Source of the DNA: Coriobacteriia bacterium
GTDB lineage: Bacteria; Actinomycetota; Coriobacteriia; Coriobacteriales; Eggerthellaceae
Length of the DNA stretch: 64,000 nucleotides
NCBI GenBank assembly: GCA_030530215.1
Contig: JAUMVJ010000001.1
Coordinates: 120,168-184,167 of the forward strand
Direction: 5' to 3'
Shown: in pieces, positions 24,880 through 37,548 of the stretch
How positions within the stretch are numbered: position 1 is the first letter of the stretch
Layout of the letters: each line of letters starts with the position of its first letter
The notes under the pieces: generated by a model
What the model was told of the DNA's origin: nothing
Database searches by the model: none
Seen by the model: only the letters and a program-made list of their open reading frames with translations
Program-made: the position numbers and the translations under genes

Positions 24880-27800
24880 ATGATTACCTCGGCAAAACTT
24901 CGCTCTACCAGCTCTTTCGTTCTTTTAGGCGCAACGTTTTTGGCTGCCATCCTAATTAGCTGCTTTGCACTAGCCGGCGCACATCCCGCGAAAGCTTATG
25001 CCGATGATGGGGAGCTTGGACTTGTCAGCTATAAAATCGGCGATCAACCCCACTCATTCAGCAAAAACAACGTGGCGGATCTTTTTGCGTCCGCCGAAGA
25101 GTGCGCCAAGAAAAACGTCCCTATAACCATCACTGTTTACAGAGATATCGATACCAGCTCCTACGGCACCATCCAGATTCCCGCAAACAGCAACTACATC
25201 ATCGACCTTCAAGGCCACAAAATCGACCGAGGTCTTGCCAATTCGAGCCTTAGCACCTCTGACAATGGTCGCGTCATTCAGGTAAACGAAGGTGCCAGCC
25301 TCACCATCAATGGCACAAGCGGCAAGGATGCCGAAGAACAAAGCAAAACCGAACACAAAGGCAGCACCTTCACGCTTGCAACCGGCGGCAAGCTTTGGAA
25401 GTCTTCCGACGGTTCAGACGGCTCGGAGTCGATCTATGGAGCCCTTATCACAGGAGGCGCAGCTGAAGATTTCGGCGGCGGCATCGGCGCTTGCAGCAAC
25501 AGCGGCGACCTTACCATCAACAATGTGACGATCGCGGGCAACATCACTGATGATTTCGGCGGCGGCGTTGGCGTTGAAGCCTCGGGCAAGGCGGAATTCA
25601 AAAAGGTCACCATTGCCTGGAACTATTCGAGCGATTGCGGTGGCGGCCTGGGCCTCGGCGATAACTCGGGCTCTTCAAAGATGGATGAGAGCTCTTCGAT
25701 CGAATACAACAGCGCCGCCAGCAACGGCGGCGGGCTCTATCTTGATGCAGCGGCCAACAACATTCAGCTTGCAGGCAAGTCGAGCATCAAGAACAACATC
25801 GCCAAGGGCAACGGCGGCGGCGCTTACACAAGAGAAGTCAACGCCCAGATAAGCCTTAAAGAAGGCTCCGCCATCTCTTACAACAAAGCCGAAGGAAGCG
25901 GTGGCGGAATCTACTCCAACAGCACCGAAAGCGTCTTCACTCTTACCGACGGCCACATCAACAACAATGAGGCAGCCAAAGACGGCGGCGGGATCTACTC
26001 CAACGATGGCGTGGCCGTCTTCATGTACAGCAAGTCGGAGCTCAGCCACAACAAGGCCGCCAATGGCGGCGGCGCTTATGCCGACAACGGTGGCAGCTTC
26101 ATCGTTCAAGACTCTTCCGAGATCGCCTATAACCAGGCAAGCGGTGAGGGCGGAGGCATCCGCACGGCAGACAGCACCTCGATCGAGATGAAGACGTCTG
26201 CCGTCATCAAAGGCAACCAAGCGCAAAACGGTGGCGGAATTTACGCTAAATCGCCCTGGTACCTTACTGCGCAGGAAATATTTTTAGGCCTTTGGGGCGG
26301 CAGTAGCATCTGCGATAACACCGCCAGCGAAAACGGTGGCGGCGTCTGGATCAAAGACGACATACTCCAGATCAACGGAAACAACAACCCCATCGCCAAC
26401 AATAGCGCCAACGGAAACGGCGGTGGACTGCACCTTCAAAGCGTGTCGCGCGATAGCTTCATCCAAAACCTCTATGTCCAAAACAACACTGCCGAAAACG
26501 GCGGCGGCATCTGGTGCAACGCAAACCCCTCCATATACGACGTCAGCATTTCGGGCAACACAGCCTCTAAGAACGGTGGCGGTTTCTACGCCTCGGGCAT
26601 CTCTGGCCTAAGGCTCACAGGAACCTGCTATGTCCTCAAGAATTCCGCAAACGACGAGGCCGACAACCTATATCTCAACAATTCCAAGCTTGAATCCAAC
26701 TTCAGCTTCAGCGATGAGAGCGGCAAGCGCTACTTAAGCGAAAACAGCCGGATCGGAGTCAGCCTGAACAAAGAGGTATCCGGCGCCGAATTCAGCACCA
26801 GTAGCCGCCAGATTCTTAAATATCCAGCCGAAACCGTTAAGTATGTTTTCTACCCGGACAACAAAGATTTCCACGCTGGCGTGGACGACGTTATAGCCTG
26901 CCTGTATAGCGGCCCGGAAACATGGAATTGCACCGCCTACGGACCCGATTCCTCAAAAGAAGCCTTTAACAAAGACTTCAAGCAAGGAGACACCATCGAG
27001 CTGGATGCCAATAGCTCCGAATTCGCTAAAACAGGCACCGTGAAAAACAGCTTCGATGAAGAGGACACCAAGGAATACACCACCGAATATCGCCTTGATT
27101 ACTGGGAGGTCGAGGGCTCCGAAGACGCTTGGGTTGCCCAGGGGCTGGAAAAACCCTCCAAGGTTTACCCCGATAGCTCCGGCAAGGCTCAACTAACCAT
27201 GCCTGCGGGCGATATCGTTCTACGCGCCCACTACACAGCATCCCTTGCGGGGCTTTCGCTGAGCATCAAAGATACTGCCACCTGGGACGATCTTGGGAAA
27301 AGCATTTCGAATGCCTCCGTTTCATCCATCCGCCTTACCAATGCTCAGGACGAAAAACGAACCGTCACCGAAAAGGCGGCAAGCAATGGGCTGGCAAAAG
27401 TGACGTCATGCAAGTTAAGCGGAACAGATAGCTCTCCCAAAACGCTTACGTACACTGTTGAAATAGATCCCGAGATCGCCGAAGAATATGGCATGTACCT
27501 TGCTGAAGGCTCGGTCAAATTCCAGAGTTCCTTGGTTAACGCGCTCTATACAACGGTGACCGTTTCCACGAACACAACATACGAGAAGGACTCCACCGGC
27601 AAGCTTAGCAAGGTAGTTGTCACTTCGAAAATCAGGGCAATCAGCAGCCCCGTAGATTCGCTCAAGGTCCTTGTTGCCAACCTCAACGTTAATTCAAACG
27701 TTTTGTTTGGGTATTGGACCAGCAACTATAAGGCCACGGAAGATGCGGTTATAACCCCGCCTAACGAGTCTGGCATGACCTTCGTCAAATGGGATAAATC

Positions 27801-30360
27801 CACCATTCCCGAAGGAGCTACCGAAGACCCCCAGACGCACGCGCTCACGGTGCCTTCGCTAAGCGATAGCCTGGTTGGGGCCAAAGCCCTCAAGGCATAC
27901 TACGCACCGACCATTTCCAACCTTAAAATCGATATATCCACCCCACAGCCTGGAGAGGCATTCCCAAGCAAACTTAATTCCTTGATCCTCTTCAACGAAA
28001 GCTGGACTTTCGATGACTTTGCCGACACGGCAAATAAAGACATTGAAATCGCCTGGACAAAAGAAGATGGCACCGCAGCAGGCAACACGGCCGAAGGCAG
28101 CACGACCTACATCGCAAATATCACGACCAAGCTCAAAAGCAGCGATGGAACACAGTTCGATCTAAACGAGAAAAGCTTGAAGGCCAGCATTAACGGGATG
28201 GATTCCGTTGACGTTACCGTGGATAAAACAGCTGGAACCCAAAGCTTCACCTTCTCTTTCACCACCGAGGCGGACAAGCGCTTCGAGAAGATTGTGACTG
28301 ACCTTTCCGATGTAATGGTTCCTTATGCAAGCGCCAGTAAAAGCAAGCTGCCAAAGCTTATTCACTATCAACTCAAAGATGGAACCGTCAGAAACGCTAC
28401 CGCATCCTGGAAGATCGCCGAAATCCCCGAAGACACCAGCACTGATGCCTTTAGCGTCACCGGAACCTTCACCGACGACAACAACCAAGAGCATAAGGTT
28501 TCCCGAAATTTCACCATCTGCGACCTGGATGCACCGGTGGCAAGCGTTGCCTCTGGATACATTGCGGGCGAGAAAGTGATCACGCTGAAAGATGGCGACA
28601 ACTGGCTTAGCCCAGAGACCACAACCATCTACTATGGCCTTACCAACGAAATCAGCGATACCCCTGAGTACAAGGAGTACACCGGGCCTTTCACCATCAG
28701 CGACGCTTGCGTGCTTACCATCTACGCAAAAGTCAACGGTCGTGAAAGCGCCTATGCCAAATACATCTACAACGAAGGCACCAACCATTCCATCACGACA
28801 AACGCTCAGGATGAGCAAGGACAAGAAGTAAGCCCCGATACCGGGCAAGACTCGCTTATCAGCGCAGTTGACGAAGAGGGCAACAGCATTAGCGAATACG
28901 TTTCCGGACGAATTGTTAATCTGGTGGCCCTTAACACCACTGATCTTGTTTTTGACAGCTGGCAAAGCAGCAACGACGACGTTGAGTTCTCCGATAAGAA
29001 CAGCGCAAGCACTTCCTTCAAAATGCCTGATGAGGCAGTGAGCATCACCGCCAAATACCGTTCAAGCGAAAAGCATAGCCTCGTTTCCGAAAATGCAAGT
29101 TTCTTGGATGCCAGCGGAAACCAGATCACTTCGGCTAAAAAGGGCGAAACGGTCACCGTTAAGGCGAACTCCGCCTCCGCACCTGTTGGCAACTACGCTT
29201 TCGACCACTGGGAGCTTGTTTCCGACGACGATGGAAGTGGCGGAGAATCCAGCGAAACCATCGAATTCAAGGATGCAAGCAGCGCCACGACCACCTTCAC
29301 TATGATCGATGCCGATGTGAAGATTGCGGCAATTTACTCGCCAGCCTACACGGTAAGCTTCGATTCAACGGGAGGAAGCACTGTTGACTCGCAAAACGTG
29401 AAGAAGGGCGAGCTTGCTGCGAAACCCGATACCGACCCAGTACGTGATGGCTATGTATTTGCCGGCTGGTACGAAGACGAAGAATGTAGCGAAGCCTTTG
29501 ATTTTGAAAACACCAAGGTCAAAAACGATATCTGCCTATATGCAAAGTGGGATATCTCGATAGCCAACGCAGAAATCGAGTTGGGTAATAGCCTGGTGTA
29601 CACCGGCGAAGAGCAGGAACAGACCATCAAATCCGTTAAGGTCACTCTTGATGGCGCGCAACACGAGGTGCCGCTTGGCTGCTTGACGATCGAGGGGAAT
29701 AAAGCAACCAAGGTGGGCAGCTATACGATGACCATCTCGGCCAATAAGAACAGCGGCTACGCAGGCAGCATCAGTTGCAAGTACGCGATTTCTAAAGCGC
29801 CTGAACCCGAGCCTGAGCCAGATCAAAAGCCGACAGAAGGCATCGACATCTCTAACGCAAAGATCACGCTTTCAAAGACCGCTCTTGCTTATACCGGCAA
29901 AACACAAAAGCCCACCCTTAAATCCGTTGTGGTAAGCGGAAAAGCGCTGAAAGACGGCAAGGACTTTACTGCCAAAATCGAGGCAGGCAAAAAAGTTGGA
30001 ACCTACCAGGTGGCAATCACCGCAAATGGTGGCACGTACAAAGGCAAGGCAAGCACTACCTATACCATTAAACCGAAGAAGGTAAGCGGCTTTAAGCTCT
30101 CCAAGGCGAAGAAAGCCTTTAAGGCCAAATGGACAAAGAACAAGACCGAGCGCTCCGGCGTTCAGATTCGCTACTCCACTAAAAAGTCCATGAAAAAAGC
30201 CGTGACGACGCAGGCCAAGGGCGCCTCCGCCAAGGCCAAGACGGTGAAGAAGCTCAAGAAGAAGACAAAGTACTACGTACAGGTACGCAGCTATAAGGTC
30301 GTCAACGGCAAAACCTACTACTCCAGCTGGTCTACCAAGAAGGCTGTAAAGACTAATTAG
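24880..30360 (+). CDS. Giant secreted beta-helix surface protein (1826 residues)
   Basis: A signal peptide (cleavage near AKAYA, about residue 41) is followed by a right-handed beta-helix built of 14 turns with a GGG motif, roughly one per 26 residues, such as NNEAAKDGGGIYSN (about 200-575). These resemble polymorphic outer membrane protein repeats. After that come beta-sandwich and InlB-like repeats, including FDHWELV..FTMIDADVKIAAIY and YTVSFDSTGG..GYVFAGWYED (about 1490-1555). A chitobiase C-terminal-like segment lies near 1220-1300. One MBG-type domain and the basic fibronectin-III-like end (SGFKLSKAKKAFKAKWTKNK to the C-terminus) are shared with the protein at 8442. No LPxTG is present. 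Probably a large adhesin. AAAGGGG precedes the ATG. Confidence 0.82.
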   Translation: MITSAKLRSTSSFVLLGATFLAAILISCFALAGAHPAKAYADDGELGLVSYKIGDQPHSFSKNNVADLFASAEECAKKNVPITITVYRDIDTSSYGTIQIPANSNYIIDLQGHKIDRGLANSSLSTSDNGRVIQVNEGASLTINGTSGKDAEEQSKTEHKGSTFTLATGGKLWKSSDGSDGSESIYGALITGGAAEDFGGGIGACSNSGDLTINNVTIAGNITDDFGGGVGVEASGKAEFKKVTIAWNYSSDCGGGLGLGDNSGSSKMDESSSIEYNSAASNGGGLYLDAAANNIQLAGKSSIKNNIAKGNGGGAYTREVNAQISLKEGSAISYNKAEGSGGGIYSNSTESVFTLTDGHINNNEAAKDGGGIYSNDGVAVFMYSKSELSHNKAANGGGAYADNGGSFIVQDSSEIAYNQASGEGGGIRTADSTSIEMKTSAVIKGNQAQNGGGIYAKSPWYLTAQEIFLGLWGGSSICDNTASENGGGVWIKDDILQINGNNNPIANNSANGNGGGLHLQSVSRDSFIQNLYVQNNTAENGGGIWCNANPSIYDVSISGNTASKNGGGFYASGISGLRLTGTCYVLKNSANDEADNLYLNNSKLESNFSFSDESGKRYLSENSRIGVSLNKEVSGAEFSTSSRQILKYPAETVKYVFYPDNKDFHAGVDDVIACLYSGPETWNCTAYGPDSSKEAFNKDFKQGDTIELDANSSEFAKTGTVKNSFDEEDTKEYTTEYRLDYWEVEGSEDAWVAQGLEKPSKVYPDSSGKAQLTMPAGDIVLRAHYTASLAGLSLSIKDTATWDDLGKSISNASVSSIRLTNAQDEKRTVTEKAASNGLAKVTSCKLSGTDSSPKTLTYTVEIDPEIAEEYGMYLAEGSVKFQSSLVNALYTTVTVSTNTTYEKDSTGKLSKVVVTSKIRAISSPVDSLKVLVANLNVNSNVLFGYWTSNYKATEDAVITPPNESGMTFVKWDKSTIPEGATEDPQTHALTVPSLSDSLVGAKALKAYYAPTISNLKIDISTPQPGEAFPSKLNSLILFNESWTFDDFADTANKDIEIAWTKEDGTAAGNTAEGSTTYIANITTKLKSSDGTQFDLNEKSLKASINGMDSVDVTVDKTAGTQSFTFSFTTEADKRFEKIVTDLSDVMVPYASASKSKLPKLIHYQLKDGTVRNATASWKIAEIPEDTSTDAFSVTGTFTDDNNQEHKVSRNFTICDLDAPVASVASGYIAGEKVITLKDGDNWLSPETTTIYYGLTNEISDTPEYKEYTGPFTISDACVLTIYAKVNGRESAYAKYIYNEGTNHSITTNAQDEQGQEVSPDTGQDSLISAVDEEGNSISEYVSGRIVNLVALNTTDLVFDSWQSSNDDVEFSDKNSASTSFKMPDEAVSITAKYRSSEKHSLVSENASFLDASGNQITSAKKGETVTVKANSASAPVGNYAFDHWELVSDDDGSGGESSETIEFKDASSATTTFTMIDADVKIAAIYSPAYTVSFDSTGGSTVDSQNVKKGELAAKPDTDPVRDGYVFAGWYEDEECSEAFDFENTKVKNDICLYAKWDISIANAEIELGNSLVYTGEEQEQTIKSVKVTLDGAQHEVPLGCLTIEGNKATKVGSYTMTISANKNSGYAGSISCKYAISKAPEPEPEPDQKPTEGIDISNAKITLSKTALAYTGKTQKPTLKSVVVSGKALKDGKDFTAKIEAGKKVGTYQVAITANGGTYKGKASTTYTIKPKKVSGFKLSKAKKAFKAKWTKNKTERSGVQIRYSTKKSMKKAVTTQAKGASAKAKTVKKLKKKTKYYVQVRSYKVVNGKTYYSSWSTKKAVKTN

Positions 30361-30571: not shown

Positions 30572-31945
30572 CTACTGTTCCTCGTGCCAAGGGTAAAACT
30601 CTCCCCTGCCCTTGCGGTCGAGCTCGTGGGGGTAGCCCACGTGCATCCTGAACCACTGCATGTCAGGGTTGGCAAACGAAAGGTTGCCAGGCGCGCCATC
30701 GAAAAGTTCCTCGTCCAGCGAAGACAGAGGGATCTTCTTGTCGATGATGAAGGTGTAGATTCCGGCAGCCTCGGGGCAGTTCATAAGGATGAAGCCGTAC
30801 AGACGATCGTCCTTGATCACGAACTTGCGATAGCTGTCGCCGTCGGCAATCACGCGCTCCTCAAAGCCAAGGTCGGGCTTGGGGCGCACGATGCCGGCCG
30901 TAAGAAGCGAAACCTCGCCGAAGAAATTAGTCGCATTAACAGCAAAATTGCCAGGGAATACGCCCTCGCTTGAGCTGCCGGCCATCTGAGCGCCGGCGAT
31001 CCTGCCCTGGCGCACCGCATTGGGCCACAAAGCCAGAGGCTTATCGGTGCCGTCGAGGGTGTTGGTGGTTTGCGTAACGTCGCCTGCGGCGAACACGTCG
31101 GGCAGACTCGTCTTCATCTGACGATCGACCACCAGACCGCGGCATTCCTCAGCACCGGCGGCAACCGCGATGAAGCTGTTGGGTCGAACGCCAATAGCCA
31201 CAACGACGAAATCGACGTCGAGCTCGGTACCATCAGTCATATAGGCATGCGTGATGGCGCCGTCAACGACATCGAAGCGCTCAGCCGTGGCACCAGGACG
31301 GCAGATGATCCGAGGCGCAACCAGCTTGGTGAGCAGCGCGCCTGCCTCGAGGTCAAGAACGCCGTCCAGAATGGGGAAGCTTCGCTTGTATACCACAACC
31401 TCGTCGGCATGGAAGGAAAGCGCCTCGGCTGCCTTCATGCCAATCAAGCCACCGCCAAGAACCATGACGCGGCTCTTGCGCCCTTCGGCGTGCGCTGCCG
31501 CCGTGGCTGCATCAACCATGGAACCAGCCTGTTTAGCCTGGTCAAGCGTAATGAAGTTGACCGCGTTCTTCGCGCCGGCAAGGCCGGGGATGTCGACCTG
31601 GCTCGGGGTAGAGCCCGTGGCAACCAAAAGCTTGCCGTAGCCGATTTTCTCCTCGTTCACCAGCTCGACCTCGTGAGCCTCAGCGTCAATGGCCATGGCT
31701 CCAAACCCAGGCCCGAAAAGGGTATCGATATTGTTGTCCGCATAGAAGGATGCGGGGCGCAGCCACATGTTTTCCTCGGCGATCTTGCCCTCAAGCACGT
31801 AGGAAATCAAGGGGGTGCCGTAGGCCGCGTAGGGCTCGGGCGAAAGCATCAGGATGCTGCCCACATCGCCGGCGTCGCGGATAGCCTCGGCAGCCGAGAT
31901 GCCCGCAGCGGAATTTCCAAGGATGACGTAATCGTAAGATTTCAT
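30572..31945 (-). CDS. FAD/NAD(P)-dependent oxidoreductase of the split glutamate synthase operon
   Basis: This 457-residue pyridine-nucleotide disulfide oxidoreductase-like flavoprotein has an FAD site in YVILGNSAAGISAAEA near the N-terminus. YAAYGTPLISYVL, LLVATGSTP, a second Rossmann motif VLGGGLIGMKAAEAL and FAAGDVTQ follow. No redox-active CxxxxC is present, which sets it apart from glutathione-reductase types and closer to NADH:rubredoxin or nitrite-reductase-type flavoproteins. It is the last gene of the operon, ten bases after the GXGXG subunit, with AGGAGG before the ATG. It probably passes electrons from NAD(P)H through the ferredoxin-like subunit to the synthase; that direction is inferred from context. 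Confidence 0.8.
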   Translation of the reverse strand: MKSYDYVILGNSAAGISAAEAIRDAGDVGSILMLSPEPYAAYGTPLISYVLEGKIAEENMWLRPASFYADNNIDTLFGPGFGAMAIDAEAHEVELVNEEKIGYGKLLVATGSTPSQVDIPGLAGAKNAVNFITLDQAKQAGSMVDAATAAAHAEGRKSRVMVLGGGLIGMKAAEALSFHADEVVVYKRSFPILDGVLDLEAGALLTKLVAPRIICRPGATAERFDVVDGAITHAYMTDGTELDVDFVVVAIGVRPNSFIAVAAGAEECRGLVVDRQMKTSLPDVFAAGDVTQTTNTLDGTDKPLALWPNAVRQGRIAGAQMAGSSSEGVFPGNFAVNATNFFGEVSLLTAGIVRPKPDLGFEERVIADGDSYRKFVIKDDRLYGFILMNCPEAAGIYTFIIDKKIPLSSLDEELFDGAPGNLSFANPDMQWFRMHVGYPHELDRKGRGEFYPWHEEQ

Positions 31946-31955
31946 TTACGACCTC

Positions 31956-32687
31956 CTAGTTCGTGTACATCGCCGCGTAGGGCTTTGCCGAAATGGGACG
32001 CAGGCACCAGAAGCCGTCACCGGAATCGTCGACGGGGGCTCCCAGCTCCTCGGCGAAGTGCTTGTTGTACTCCGCCAGAAGTGCATGGATAACCGCCTTG
32101 TCCTCGGGACCGGCTTCCTTTTGCATAAGGCCAGGAAGAACCTGGTGATCTTTGAGCTTGTTCTTCAGGTAAACGACGCCGCCGTGCATACCTGTTGCCA
32201 AGTACTCGCCGGCTGTTCCCATAAGAAGGATCACGCCGCCGGCCAGGTACTCGCCCAAAAAGTTGCCCGCGTTGCCGCCAACGACGACGCAGGGGCACTT
32301 GCTTTCGTACTGCTTCATGTGGATGCCAACGCGCCAGCCGCAATCGTCGCGGATGAAAATGGCACCGCCGCGCATCGCGTAACCGGCGGCATCGCCGCAG
32401 CGGCCGTGAACGATGATCTTGCCATCGTTCATGGTGTTGCCGATCTGATCCTGGGCGTTGCCAAAGACCTCGATCGTGCCGCCGTCCATGTAACAAGCCA
32501 TGTCGTTACCGGGGGTTCCGTTGACGAGCAGATTCTTGCCCTTGGGAAGGGCGCTGCCCAGATAGCGCTGTGCGAACACCTCGTTGAGTTCAACGGTATC
32601 GGAAACCTCAAGAGCAGCGTTCACGCGCTCATTGGCGGGGCGGAAATGCTCGGTTCCCAGAGTGAGGGAGGTTTTGCTTGCAATCAT
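31956..32687 (-). CDS. Glutamate synthase GXGXG-domain subunit (GltB3-like)
   Basis: This 243-residue protein consists of a right-handed beta-helix built from repeated G-x-x-G-x-x-x-G turns, as in GTPGNDMACYMDGGTIEVFG, GKIIVHGRCGDAAGYAMRGG and GGNAGNFLGEYLAGGVILLM. It is the stand-alone equivalent of the C-terminal GXGXG domain of GltB. That domain is structural and supports the ammonia tunnel between glutaminase and FMN sites. GAGG precedes the ATG. The gene lies two bases after the Fe-S subunit. Confidence 0.87.
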   Translation of the reverse strand: MIASKTSLTLGTEHFRPANERVNAALEVSDTVELNEVFAQRYLGSALPKGKNLLVNGTPGNDMACYMDGGTIEVFGNAQDQIGNTMNDGKIIVHGRCGDAAGYAMRGGAIFIRDDCGWRVGIHMKQYESKCPCVVVGGNAGNFLGEYLAGGVILLMGTAGEYLATGMHGGVVYLKNKLKDHQVLPGLMQKEAGPEDKAVIHALLAEYNKHFAEELGAPVDDSGDGFWCLRPISAKPYAAMYTN

Positions 32688-32689
32688 GA

Positions 32690-33133
32690 CTATGCCTCGC
32701 TCTCAACGTAAACCAAGGCGCGATTGGGGCAGGCCGCAACGCAGCTTGGCTTGCCTGGCTGACCCGCGCAGGCGCCGCACAAATCGCACTTGATGGCGGT
32801 GCCTTCAATATGAACTGCGCCGAAGGGGCAGCTCACGACGCAAGTTCCGCAGCCAACGCACTTCTTCGCGTCGACGAATACCACGCCGGTTTCGGGGTCG
32901 CGCTGCATTGCGCCCGCGATGCAACCCTCAACGCACAAAGGCTTGGCGCACTGGCGGCAGTTCGATGCGAAGGAGAAGTCGTTGTCGCCCTCGACCTTGA
33001 TGCGAGGGCCTGCGCACTTCTCGTATTTGAATGCCTTGACGGGGTTCTTCGATTTGGAATGAGCCGTTTTGCAGGCCACCTCGCAGCGACCGCAGTTGAT
33101 GCACAGCTCGGGAATGGGGTAAATCCTCTTCAT
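32690..33133 (-). CDS. 4Fe-4S ferredoxin-like subunit of glutamate synthase
   Basis: This 147-residue protein has several cysteine clusters: CINCGRCEVAC, NCRQCAKPLCVEGC, CVGCGTCVVSC and CDLCGACAGQPGKPSCVAAC. They could hold up to four [4Fe-4S] clusters, in the style of HycB/DmsB-type electron carriers. It probably relays electrons between the flavoprotein and the FMN subunit. A GTG at 33142 overlaps the preceding stop codon. I prefer the ATG at 33133, with AGGAG ten bases upstream, because the GTG sits too close to that ribosome site. Confidence 0.85.
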   Translation of the reverse strand: MKRIYPIPELCINCGRCEVACKTAHSKSKNPVKAFKYEKCAGPRIKVEGDNDFSFASNCRQCAKPLCVEGCIAGAMQRDPETGVVFVDAKKCVGCGTCVVSCPFGAVHIEGTAIKCDLCGACAGQPGKPSCVAACPNRALVYVESEA

Positions 33134-33138
33134 CGTTA

Positions 33139-34644
33139 TCACTCTCCTGCATGCTGCACGCCGAGGATCTCAAGCTCCTTTTCGCGCAATCCGATGCCGC
33201 GGAGCATAAGCCTGTTGCCGCGAAGCGAATCGATGGAGTTGATTCCCATGCCGCCCATGATTTCCTGGATCTCGTGGTTCCAAGCCGTGATCAAGTTGAT
33301 CACACGCTCGGCGCCGATCTCGGGGTTGAGGCGCTTGGTAAGGTCGGGGCGCTGCGTTGCAATGCCCCAGTTGCACTTGCCCGAAGAGCAGGCCTGGCAC
33401 TGATGACAGCCGAAGGCGATGATGGCCGCAGATGCGACGTAGGTGGCGTCGGCGCCCAGGGCGATAGCCTTCACGACATCGGCAGCGTGACGGATGGAGC
33501 CCGCCGCGACAACCGACACCGTCGAGCGGATACCCTCGTCGCGCAGACGCTGGTCGATGGCAGCCAGCGCAAGCTCCAGCGGGATGCCCACGTTGTCGCG
33601 CGTGCGAATGGGGGCTGCGCCGGTGCCGCCGCGGAAGCCGTCGACGACGATGATGTCGGCGCCAGCGCGTGCGCAGCCGGAAGCAATGGCGGCAACGTTG
33701 TGAACCGCCGCGATCTTCACCGCGATGGGCTTGCTGTAGCGCGTAGCTTCTTTAAGCGAGAAGATGAGCTGGCGCAAGTCCTCGATGGAGTAGATATCGT
33801 GATGCGGAGCGGGGCTGATGGCGTCCGTCCCTTCAGGGATCATACGGGTGCGCGAAACCTCGGCGTTGATCTTGGCACCAGGCAGGTGGCCACCGATGCC
33901 GGGCTTGGCGCCCTGGCCGATCTTGATCTCGATGCAGGAACCGGCGTTGAGGTAATGCGGGTCGACGCCGAAACGGCCGGATGCAACCTGAGTGATGCAG
34001 TTGTCGCCAAACTGCTCGAGGTCGCGATGCAGGCCGCCCTCGCCCGTGTTGAAGTAGGTGCCCAGCTCGCGCGCGGCGATGGCGAGCGACTTCTGAGCGT
34101 TGAGCGAGATGGAGCCGAAGGACATGGCCGAGAACATCACAGGCACGTCGAGTTTCAGCTGCGGGGGCATCTTGGTTTCAACCGTCTTGGTTTTCTCGTT
34201 GACCTTGATAACGGTCGGACGGCTGCCCAGGAACACGCGCGTCTCCATGGGCTCGCGCAGCGGGTCGATGGAGGGGTTGGTTACCTGGGAGGCGTTAAGA
34301 AGGAGCTGGTCGAAGTAGATGGGATACGGCTTGGGGTTGCCCATGGAGCCAAGGCGCACCGAACCGGTTTGCGACTGCTTGGCAATTTCTTGCTGGGCTT
34401 CCAAGTTCCAGTTGTTGGTGCCGTTGTCGACCTGTGGCCAATCGGTGATCGAAAGCGCGCCCGTGGGGCACATGATCACGCAACGCTGGCAGTTAACGCA
34501 GGCCTTGTGATCTTCGAAGCACTTGCCAAGCTCGGTATCGACATCATGAACCTCGTTGGCGCACTGGCGCTCGCAAACGCCGCACTGAATGCACAGCTCT
34601 TCGTCACGAACGACCTTGTAACGGGGCAAAGTGTAGTCCAACAT
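33139..34644 (-). CDS. Glutamate synthase FMN/Fe-S catalytic subunit (archaeal-type)
   Basis: This 501-residue protein has an N-terminal dicluster ferredoxin segment (CIQCGVCERQC and CVNCQRCVIMC, about 18-58). The FMN-binding TIM barrel of glutamate synthases follows, with FSAMSFGSIS, NTGEGGLHRDL, KPGIGGHLPGAKI, GTDAISPAPHHDIYSIEDL, VDGFRGGTGAAPI and a 3Fe-4S-type CHQCQACSSGKCNWGIATQ. It makes glutamate from 2-oxoglutarate and the ammonia released by the glutaminase subunit. Splitting GltB into separate polypeptides with an added ferredoxin domain is the archaeal-type layout, also known in some anaerobic bacteria. Confidence 0.92.
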   Translation of the reverse strand: MLDYTLPRYKVVRDEELCIQCGVCERQCANEVHDVDTELGKCFEDHKACVNCQRCVIMCPTGALSITDWPQVDNGTNNWNLEAQQEIAKQSQTGSVRLGSMGNPKPYPIYFDQLLLNASQVTNPSIDPLREPMETRVFLGSRPTVIKVNEKTKTVETKMPPQLKLDVPVMFSAMSFGSISLNAQKSLAIAARELGTYFNTGEGGLHRDLEQFGDNCITQVASGRFGVDPHYLNAGSCIEIKIGQGAKPGIGGHLPGAKINAEVSRTRMIPEGTDAISPAPHHDIYSIEDLRQLIFSLKEATRYSKPIAVKIAAVHNVAAIASGCARAGADIIVVDGFRGGTGAAPIRTRDNVGIPLELALAAIDQRLRDEGIRSTVSVVAAGSIRHAADVVKAIALGADATYVASAAIIAFGCHQCQACSSGKCNWGIATQRPDLTKRLNPEIGAERVINLITAWNHEIQEIMGGMGINSIDSLRGNRLMLRGIGLREKELEILGVQHAGE

Positions 34645-34647
34645 CGG

Positions 34648-35844
34648 CTAAACACCCCTTTGATAGGTACGGGTTGCGCCGACTTCGGTGATGCCGGCGC
34701 CGGGAACTTCAACAACAGGCGTGTTGACGCCGGCTTCTTCGCGTTTGCGCTCGGCAACCTCGTTCAACTGAACGACGAAGGGCACGCCGCCCTCGACGGA
34801 GCGCATGTTCTCAGCATCGGGGCAGATGATCTCGATTGCCGCCTGCTCGGAAGCCAGGTACACCATGTCGCCCTTTTCGGCCACCATCAAAGCGCGCAGC
34901 TTCAGGCGGTCGTTAAGCGCAAGCAGGCCTTCCTCGGAGCCAAGAATGACCGAGAAGGGGCCATTGATGAGCGCGCTGGAGTACACCGTGCGCAGGGCGC
35001 TTTCGTAAGCGGCCAGGCCGGGCTCCATGCGGTCGATATCCTCCCAAGAAGGAGCGGTCATGATGTGCGCGGCGGTTTCGGCGGAAAGGCCGTGACGACG
35101 AATAAGAAGGTCGAACAGGTAGGTGATGACCTCGGTGTCGGTTTGCAGATCACAGTTGTAGCCGAACTGCTCGACGTAACGACGGTTGGCGTCGTAGGAC
35201 GAAATCTCGCCGTTGTGCACGATCGACCAGTTGAGCAGCGTGAAGGGATGAGCGCCGCCCCACCAACCGGGGGTGTTGGTTGGGAAGCGGTTGTGCGCCG
35301 TCCACAGCCACGCCTTGTAATCCTGAATGCGGTAGAACTCGCCGATTTCCTCGGGGTAGCCAACGCCCTTGAAGGCGCCCATGTTCTTACCGGAGCTGGC
35401 AACGAAGGCTCCGTCGATATGCGAGTTGATGTAGAAGACGCGCTGCATGGTGTACTCGGCCTCGTCAAGCTCGCTTTCGGCAAGCTTGATGGGATGCGGC
35501 ACCATGAAGTAGCGCCAGATGTGTGGCGGGTTTTGAATGGTTCGGACGTAATCGGTGGGGATCTTCTCCTGCTTCTCGATTAGGAACCACTCGTCCAAGT
35601 AGGCCTCGGCCATAAGGCGGGCATCCTTGGTTTCATACAGCATATGGAACGCGAACAAATCTTTGTAATCGGGGTAAATGCCGTAGGCCGCAAAGCCGCC
35701 GCCCAAGCCGTTACCACGGTCATGCATCAAAGAAATGGACTTCAGCACATCGGTGCCATCGTGCCTGGCCCCGCTGCGATCCATGATGCCCGAAATGGCG
35801 CATCCGGCAGGAATCCGGACGTCACCCTCACGAAGAAGGGTCAT
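34648..35844 (-). CDS. Glutamate synthase class II glutamine amidotransferase subunit
   Basis: This 398-residue Ntn-type amidotransferase is the first gene of the operon. The likely nucleophile is Cys15 in PAGCAISGIMDRSG. It would have to be exposed by removing a 14-residue propeptide, as in GltB. Other family features are NNGEISSYDANRRYVE and AHNRFPTNTPGWWGG, TDTEVITYLFDLL and INGPFSVILGSEEG. It hydrolyses glutamine and channels ammonia to the FMN subunit. The next gene begins three bases after its stop. Confidence 0.88.
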   Translation of the reverse strand: MTLLREGDVRIPAGCAISGIMDRSGARHDGTDVLKSISLMHDRGNGLGGGFAAYGIYPDYKDLFAFHMLYETKDARLMAEAYLDEWFLIEKQEKIPTDYVRTIQNPPHIWRYFMVPHPIKLAESELDEAEYTMQRVFYINSHIDGAFVASSGKNMGAFKGVGYPEEIGEFYRIQDYKAWLWTAHNRFPTNTPGWWGGAHPFTLLNWSIVHNGEISSYDANRRYVEQFGYNCDLQTDTEVITYLFDLLIRRHGLSAETAAHIMTAPSWEDIDRMEPGLAAYESALRTVYSSALINGPFSVILGSEEGLLALNDRLKLRALMVAEKGDMVYLASEQAAIEIICPDAENMRSVEGGVPFVVQLNEVAERKREEAGVNTPVVEVPGAGITEVGATRTYQRGV

Positions 35845-35916
35845 TTCGTACCTCTTTCATCTACCTAGGGGGCAGCTTCCCTGCAGTAAAGCCACTACCC
35901 CAAATTTGGATATTCC

Positions 35917-35970
35917 ATAGTATGAAACCATTGTTTCGGCACCGTGTATCTAATGTTTCAAGAATGTTAC
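35917..35970 (-). promoter_or_regulatory. GlnR-like double box and promoter of the glutamate synthase operon
   Basis: Read on the minus strand from 35970 to 35933, the order is GTAAC-N6-GAAAC-N6-TACAC-N6-GAAAC with exact 6-base gaps. This is the a1-b1-a2-b2 layout described for GlnR boxes of actinomycetes (gTnAC-N6-GaAAC, repeated). Only the a2 half-site is weak. A -10-like TACTAT (35922-35917) follows without a good -35 (ACGGTG at 35945-35940), as expected for an activated promoter, and the box centre would lie near -40. The glnR gene is not in the window, so binding is inferred. Confidence 0.6.
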
Positions 35971-36055: not shown

Positions 36056-37482
36056 TTACATGCCAAGGATCATGACGCCCCACTTCTGCAGAACGGGCAG
36101 CCAGCCCATGACCAGCACAACCACAATCAGCAACGGCAGCACATAACTTATATAGGCGCGAACCACGCGACCGCCGGGGAACTTCAGACCCTGGCCAGCA
36201 TCCGCCTCGGCCAGGAACTTATCAAAGCCCCAGCCCTTCTTACGGGTGCAGAACAAGAGATAGCACAAGCCACCGATGGGAAGCAGGTTGTTGGAGACGA
36301 CGAAATCCTCGAAGGTCTGGATGTCGCCAATGCCGGGCACAACGACGTCGGACCACACGTTGAAGCCTAGCAAACAAGGAAGACTCAGCACGAAGATGGC
36401 CACGCCGTTGACGGCGACCGCGCGACGGCGTTCCCATCTCCAGCTGTCCATGGTAAATGCCATGATGGCCTCGAACACCGCGATGACGGTAGAGAGCGCA
36501 GCGAAGGTCATGAACAAGAAGAACAAGGTGCACCACAGCTGACCGAAGGGCATCATCTCAAAAACCGAGGGCAAGGTAATGAACACCAGAGAGGGGCCAC
36601 TACCAGGCTCAACGCCGAAAGCAAAGCAAGCAGGGAAGATAATGAGGCCAGCCATGATGGCAACGAAGGTGTCGATCAAGCACACGCGCAGGGTCTCGCC
36701 AGGCAAACTACGGTCTTTGTCGATGTAGGAGCCAAAAATCATCATGGCACCAATACCGATGCTCAAGGTGAAGAAGGCCTGACCCATAGCCGCATACACG
36801 GCTTCCCACAGGTCGCCGATGCCGTTGCCGACGAGCGCTGAGAAGTCGGGGATCAGGTAGAAGGCCAAGCCGGCGCTAGCGCCCGGAAGCGTGACGGCGC
36901 GCACGGCCAGGATAAGGATGATGATGAAAAGCAGCTCATCATCGCCTTGGAGATGCGCTCAACTCCGTTTTTCAAGCCCGCACTGGTGCATGCCAGGCCG
37001 ATGATGACGACAAGCGCCATGTAAACCAGCTGCTCGCCGGGGTTGGCCAGCATGTTGGTGAACACGGTGCCCACCTCTTCAGCGCTCATGCCGACGAAGA
37101 GGCCCTGGGCGCTCTTAACCGTGAAGGCAAGCATCCAGCCAGCGACGGTCGTGTAGAACATCATCAGGATGTAGGTACCCGCGAAGTTGAGCCACTTCAG
37201 CCGATGCCACTTGCTGCCTTCAGGCTCCAAAACCTCGAAAGCGCGGCCGGCACCCTTTTGGGAGGCGCGGCCGATGGTGAACTCCATCACCAGGATGGGC
37301 AGCGCAAACAAAGCCAAAAACACCAGGTACATGATGATGAAGGCGGCACCGCCGTACTCGCCCGTGATGTAGGGAAAACGCCAAACGTTGCCCAAGCCGA
37401 CCGCGCATCCGGCGCTGATCAGCAGAAAGCCCATGCGCGAACTGAAGCGCTCACGCGGCTGAGTTTCGGAACCTTTAGACAT
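36056..37482 (-). pseudogene. NSS-family sodium:neurotransmitter (amino acid) symporter, frameshifted
   Basis: Two frames together give a full NSS transporter of about 475 residues. The N-terminal part (from the ATG at 37482) has the family signature AGCAVGLGNVWRFPYITGEYGG and runs to GVERISKAMM. The remainder (TLPGASAGLAFYLIPDFS to GVMILGM) is in another frame from about 36935. In between, the new frame reads ELLFIIILILAVR, which continues the expected helix. A single-base loss near 36934-36944 explains this (ATGATG-AGC where ATGAT-x-GAG is needed). If real, the gene is dead; a sequencing error is the main alternative. Members import amino acids with sodium. The ribosome site GAAAGG precedes the ATG. 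Confidence 0.8.
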
Positions 37483-37496
37483 AGGGGACCTTTCTT

Positions 37497-37534
37497 CAAA
37501 AAAAGCGCGCACCGAGCCTATGCCCGATGCGCGC
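37497..37534 (-). terminator. Intrinsic terminator of pheST
   Basis: On the minus strand, GCGCGCA and TGCGCGC pair around a 16-base loop and are followed by seven Ts. It lies just past the pheT stop, with its T-run only a few bases before the ribosome site of the NSS gene. Read-through would therefore be the only way for pheST transcripts to reach that gene. Confidence 0.85.
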
Positions 37535-37548
37535 ACGTTGGCGAATGC

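Follow-up and report, generated by a model that had tools for sequence, protein, structure and literature searches.

The split glutamate synthase operon and its double box

On the minus strand of the window (the whole stretch of 64,000 nucleotides that was analysed), five co-directional genes form an operon for a glutamate synthase of the split type together with its partners in electron transfer. It is preceded by a predicted promoter and by four short half-sites on the same strand. From the upstream side, the features are as follows:

35966–35970, minus strand: half-site a1, GTAAC; full match to GTNAC
35955–35959, minus strand: half-site b1, exact GAAAC; position kept in relatives
35944–35948, minus strand: half-site a2, TACAC; weak, AC core kept (relatives: A at position 4 in 12/14, C at position 5 in 13/14)
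35933–35937, minus strand: half-site b2, GAAAC; adjoins the promoter core, GAAAC in 12/14 relatives
35917–35922, minus strand: predicted −10 element TACTAT, 10 nt after b2
35850–35855, minus strand: predicted ribosome-binding site AGAGGT of the first gene; block common to the sister species G002
34648–35844, minus strand: 398-aa subunit of the split glutamate synthase, a class-II glutamine amidotransferase (PF00310/PF13522)
33139–34644, minus strand: 501-aa subunit of the split glutamate synthase, combining FMN synthase and ferredoxin domains (PF01645, E 1.8e-138)
32690–33142, minus strand: 4Fe-4S dicluster protein, 150 aa (PF13247)
31956–32687, minus strand: GXGXG-domain subunit of glutamate synthase, 243 aa (PF01493)
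30572–31945, minus strand: 457-aa FAD/NAD(P)-dependent oxidoreductase, encoded at the end of the operon (PF07992)

Read on the minus strand, the upstream side of the operon is GTAAC-attctt-GAAAC-attaga-TACAC-ggtgcc-GAAAC-aatggtttca-TACTAT. All three spacers of this double box (35933–35970) are exactly 6 nt long, the half-sites are 11-bp-phased, and 16 of the 18 specified letters of GTNAC-N6-GAAAC-N6-GTNAC-N6-GAAAC are matched, both misses falling in a2. The GlnR double-box consensus of Streptomyces coelicolor is given as gTnAc-n6-GaAAc-n6-GtnAC-n6-GAAAc (Tiffert 2008, as cited in PMC10704036), and all four half-sites here have A as their fourth letter, which that source quotes as irreplaceable (Wang 2015, as cited in PMC10704036). 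The double box is the sole match in the window at three or fewer mismatches (0.03 expected from shuffles), and a pattern search of the 1.47 Mb assembly, a metagenome-assembled genome (MAG; G000) of 63.6% completeness, yielded two consensus sites, of which it is one. An Rfam scan of the 64-kb window returned no RNA element.

At a spacer of 17 nt from the −10 element, the −35 position (35940–35945) reads ACGGTG and agrees with TTGACA in one of six letters. Assuming that transcription starts about 7 nt past the −10 element, the double box extends from about −60 to −23 and is centred at about −41, with b2 (about −27 to −23) near the −10 element. The sequence-only reading, whose range of 35917–35970 comprises the double box plus the −10 element, had described four half-sites in the order a1-b1-a2-b2 with exact 6-base spacing, centred near −40 of a promoter with a poor −35 and located in front of a nitrogen-assimilation operon. 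The minus-strand letters and their consensus match, the calculated centre, the −35 hexamer, and the Pfam matches of the five genes agree with each part of this description.

Two neighbours of the operon deserve mention. Upstream, an SNF-type sodium-dependent transporter (36056–37536, minus strand) is broken into two overlapping frames (36853–37536 and 36056–36904), which is a frameshift or an assembly error. Beyond the last gene, positions 24880–30360 of the plus strand encode a secreted repeat protein of 1826 aa with beta-helix-like and InlB-type repeats, likely a surface protein.

Conservation in relatives and sites at other nitrogen genes

The upstream regions of 20 gltB orthologues reach a summed consensus score of 266, compared with 207.6 (sd 3.9) for dinucleotide shuffles, which ignore shared ancestry, and the 6/6 spacing was the best of 49 tried. 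Among 14 Eggerthellaceae gltB promoters, 12 have a −10 element of the form TANNNT exactly 10 nt behind b2, and the A at position 4 is kept in 13/14 (b2), 13/14 (b1), 12/14 (a2), and 10/14 (a1) cases. In these promoters the half-sites carry 1.30 bits of information versus 0.39 in the spacers, a figure inflated by the partial selection of half-sites by best score. In the sister species the protein is 97% identical, yet upstream of the gene the alignment is confined to the core formed by a2, b2, and the −10 element and to the ribosome-binding site. Thus, conservation of the half-sites in relatives, on which the sequence-only reading had made its claim depend, was found in both spacing and distance to the promoter. 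No box precedes the three most distant orthologues (52–55% protein identity), and the regulator described below was not found in two of the genomes carrying them (G018 and G041). Outside the Eggerthellaceae, the box signal drops towards background at both gltB and amtB.

The same code recurs at further genes of nitrogen assimilation. Upstream of amtB, 21 regions from relatives score 298 against 218.7 (sd 4.1) for shuffles, again ignoring shared ancestry, with the 6/6 spacing once more the best of 49. Here most boxes are on the opposite strand to amtB and fall between this gene and a divergent GNAT gene; glnK follows amtB in most genomes of relatives. In most relatives, glnA is preceded by a single box, GTAAC-N6-GAAAC-N9-TATAAT, which was the best of 77 geometries. 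Of the further genes at which the sequence-only reading had proposed to look for the box, amtB-glnK and glnA-glnR have it in relatives. In the MAG itself, glnA has only the imperfect box GAAAT-N6-GAAAC before TATAAT, and searches for amtB and glnK/PII gave no match, so that for these two genes the comparison covers relatives. Since relatives possess both of the latter genes, we attribute their absence to the incompleteness of the assembly.

Genome-wide searches point to the same genes. With the Streptomyces consensus, 13 sites were retrieved from 59 genomes (control: 3), 11 of which precede amtB (8) or glutamate synthase (3: in the MAG, in the sister species, and in G054, where gltB is full-length); one more precedes an ATP-grasp gene, and the last is unassigned. 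The single box with TATAAT yielded 12 sites (control: 8), a total hardly above the control, so that their location alone is telling: eight precede glnA, one gdhA, and one the citrate synthase gene. The perfect motif GTNAC-N6-GAAAC-N9-TATAAT occurs three times in the 59 genomes, always before glnA. In G029, an amtB box matching 15/18 letters (L128) occurs in a genome that gave no GlnR match, which reflects either an incomplete assembly or a divergent regulator.

A GlnR homologue encoded behind glnA

With the Pfam cut-off applied, four proteins of the MAG have an OmpR-type winged helix. One of them, encoded at G000:C8:28173–28847, begins 17 nt behind glnA and is the GlnR homologue whose absence would have spoken against the sequence-only reading. 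At this locus (L066), the neighbouring open reading frames encode a glycosyltransferase-like protein and the products of glnA and polA, and no histidine kinase partner is among them. Pfam detects the winged helix (PF00486) and no recognisable receiver in the protein, and the AlphaFold model (mean pLDDT 89.7) predicts a receiver-like alpha/beta domain followed by the winged helix. Its top three sequence matches in the PDB are 8hig, 8hih, and 8hml, labelled by Foldseek as GlnR of Saccharopolyspora erythraea (8hig, 8hml) and Mycobacterium tuberculosis (8hih). The modelled DNA-binding domain superposes on 8hig with an rmsd of 1.3 Å at 46% identity, and the recognition helices are near-identical (SRTVDVHVRRVRAKLG versus TRTVDVHVRRLRAKLG in known GlnR). 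Conversely, a search with the PDB GlnR fragments among the OmpR proteins of the MAG retrieved the glnA-linked protein as best match. Comparison of full-length folds was discarded as an identity test: MtrA, PrrA, and GlnR rank alike (pTM 0.57), and because the orientation of the domains is uncertain, the match of the DNA-binding domain alone is telling. NCBIfam offered no model naming the regulator, its best matches (PhoB, MtrA) lying far below the cut-off. In a phylogenetic tree, 48 coriobacterial sequences and seven actinomycete GlnR group together, apart from 10 canonical regulators (support 95/88); with few outgroups and long branches, this is moderate evidence that they share descent.

A GlnR match was obtained in 49 of 59 related genomes, the named carriers including Gordonibacter, Adlercreutzia, Slackia, Olsenella, and Collinsella. 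Of 41 loci inspected, 37 have a co-directional glnA immediately before glnR, separated from it by no more than 113 nt. The phosphorylation pocket of the receiver is degenerate, as in known GlnR, in which Asp-50 is retained for dimerisation; in coriobacterial sequences, the position of the phosphorylated Asp is occupied by Glu in 30/40 and by Asp in 7/40. Since the pocket is lacking and Asp is so often replaced, control through phosphorylation of the acceptor residue appears unlikely. Two residues past this position an Arg is often found, resembling the D50/R52 pair described for GlnR (PMC10704036).

Proposed nitrogen control and its alternatives

Taken together, the double box at 35933–35970 is very probably a GlnR operator, through which the organism's own orphan OmpR-type GlnR would activate the glutamate synthase operon when nitrogen becomes scarce, along with amtB-glnK and glnA-glnR. 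The published transcription activation complex, in which four head-to-tail DNA-binding domains occupy four half-sites according to PMC10704036, serves as the model. On this basis, two head-to-tail GlnR dimers would bind a1-b1 and a2-b2 between about −60 and −23, replace the missing −35 contact, and recruit RNA polymerase under nitrogen shortage. GlnR may likewise activate amtB-glnK and its own glnA-glnR operon.

That GlnR binds but represses, or acts both ways instead of as a simple activator, is unlikely, although not without arguments in its favour: GlnR represses some of its targets, such as gdhA in Saccharopolyspora (PMC10704036), b2 is close to the −10 element, and most amtB boxes are on the strand opposite to amtB, near the divergent GNAT gene. 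The gltB promoter, however, lacks a usable −35, as expected for dependence on an activator, amtB-glnK and glnA are described in the literature as positively controlled by GlnR, and GlnR-controlled GOGAT genes rise at low ammonium.

A different OmpR-family regulator of the genome, of the PhoB/RegX3 or MtrA type, whose boxes also are direct repeats, is very unlikely to be what binds the 11-bp-phased repeat. Pho boxes, too, repeat every 11 bp, and two of the three further OmpR-type regulators in the genome have RegX3-like similarity, but the letters of the box fit the GlnR consensus, across whole genomes the same motif is concentrated at the genes of amtB, glnA, and glutamate synthase rather than at phosphate genes, and the GlnR candidate is the one favoured by the PDB fragments. 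Scarcely credible is a chance resemblance or a different element, for example the inverted repeat GAAACaatgGTTTC that overlaps the promoter. This repeat is present in the MAG (35924–35937), yet the shuffles leave little room for a fortuitous box in the window, and GAAAC-N4-GTTTC is not retained in relatives, whereas the phased half-sites are kept. Such conservation has already refuted chance and the inverted repeat as the main explanation.

Compared with the GlnR double boxes of S. coelicolor, the predicted operator shares the half-site letters, the a-b-a-b order, the 6-nt spacers, the coding-strand orientation at gltB, and the targets amtB, glnA, and glnK. It differs in belonging to another class of bacteria and in its weakened a2; moreover, coriobacterial b-sites are better kept than a-sites, the amtB box is mostly inverted, and most relatives have a single box at glnA. 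The placement of glnR behind glnA and the Glu in the receiver of most members also set the Coriobacteriia apart from Streptomyces and, with glnA and glnR in one apparent operon, from the GlnR of the three PDB structures. In S. erythraea, gltBD is a direct target of GlnR (Yao 2014, as cited in PMC10704036); glutamate synthase is the predicted target here as well, in the form of a split five-gene enzyme, while the relative G054 has the box before a full-length gltB. A regulator named GlnR is also encoded together with glnA in the glnRA operon of Bacillota, but it is of the MerR type (PMC9249791) and thus unrelated to the OmpR-type protein, has another operator, and precedes glnA instead of following it. 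The position of glnR in an apparent glnA operon and the frequent loss of the phospho-acceptor Asp hint at control of GlnR by direct contact with glutamine synthetase, as a convergent counterpart of the Bacillota circuit; we regard this idea as a long shot, which if true would tell to which signal an orphan GlnR responds. In any case, the glnA-glnR pairing and the Glu-for-Asp change bear on that question.

A GlnR switch is ordinary in kind and apparently undescribed in Coriobacteriia. No paper on GlnR in Coriobacteria, Eggerthella, or Collinsella was found in the open-access literature searched, in line with the earlier remark that this reach of GlnR is little described, and earlier notice elsewhere is possible. 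With the proposed operator, the nitrogen regulon of GlnR would reach into a class that includes common gut bacteria, providing a directly testable regulon for a group in which we found no account of nitrogen control; the circuit would then predate the split of the Coriobacteriia from other Actinomycetota or have been transferred between them.

Some further sites are of interest. The box with TATAAT before the genes of glutamate dehydrogenase (L281, G039:C11:41490) and citrate synthase (L270, G045:C172:1752) suggests a wider carbon/nitrogen regulon. At several Eggerthellaceae amtB loci (L123, L126, L137, L138, and others), a near-perfect double box points towards the GNAT acetyltransferase gene, whose start is sometimes about 26 nt away; acetylation of GlnR has been reported in Streptomyces. 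The other consensus site of the MAG (L067 1501–1538; G000:C6:98267–98304), with GAAAC-N6-GTCAC-N6-GAAAC intact, is situated between a serine dehydratase gene and a circularly permuted ATP-grasp gene, and GlnR-like half-sites also precede this ATP-grasp gene in some relatives (L261, L267, L268).
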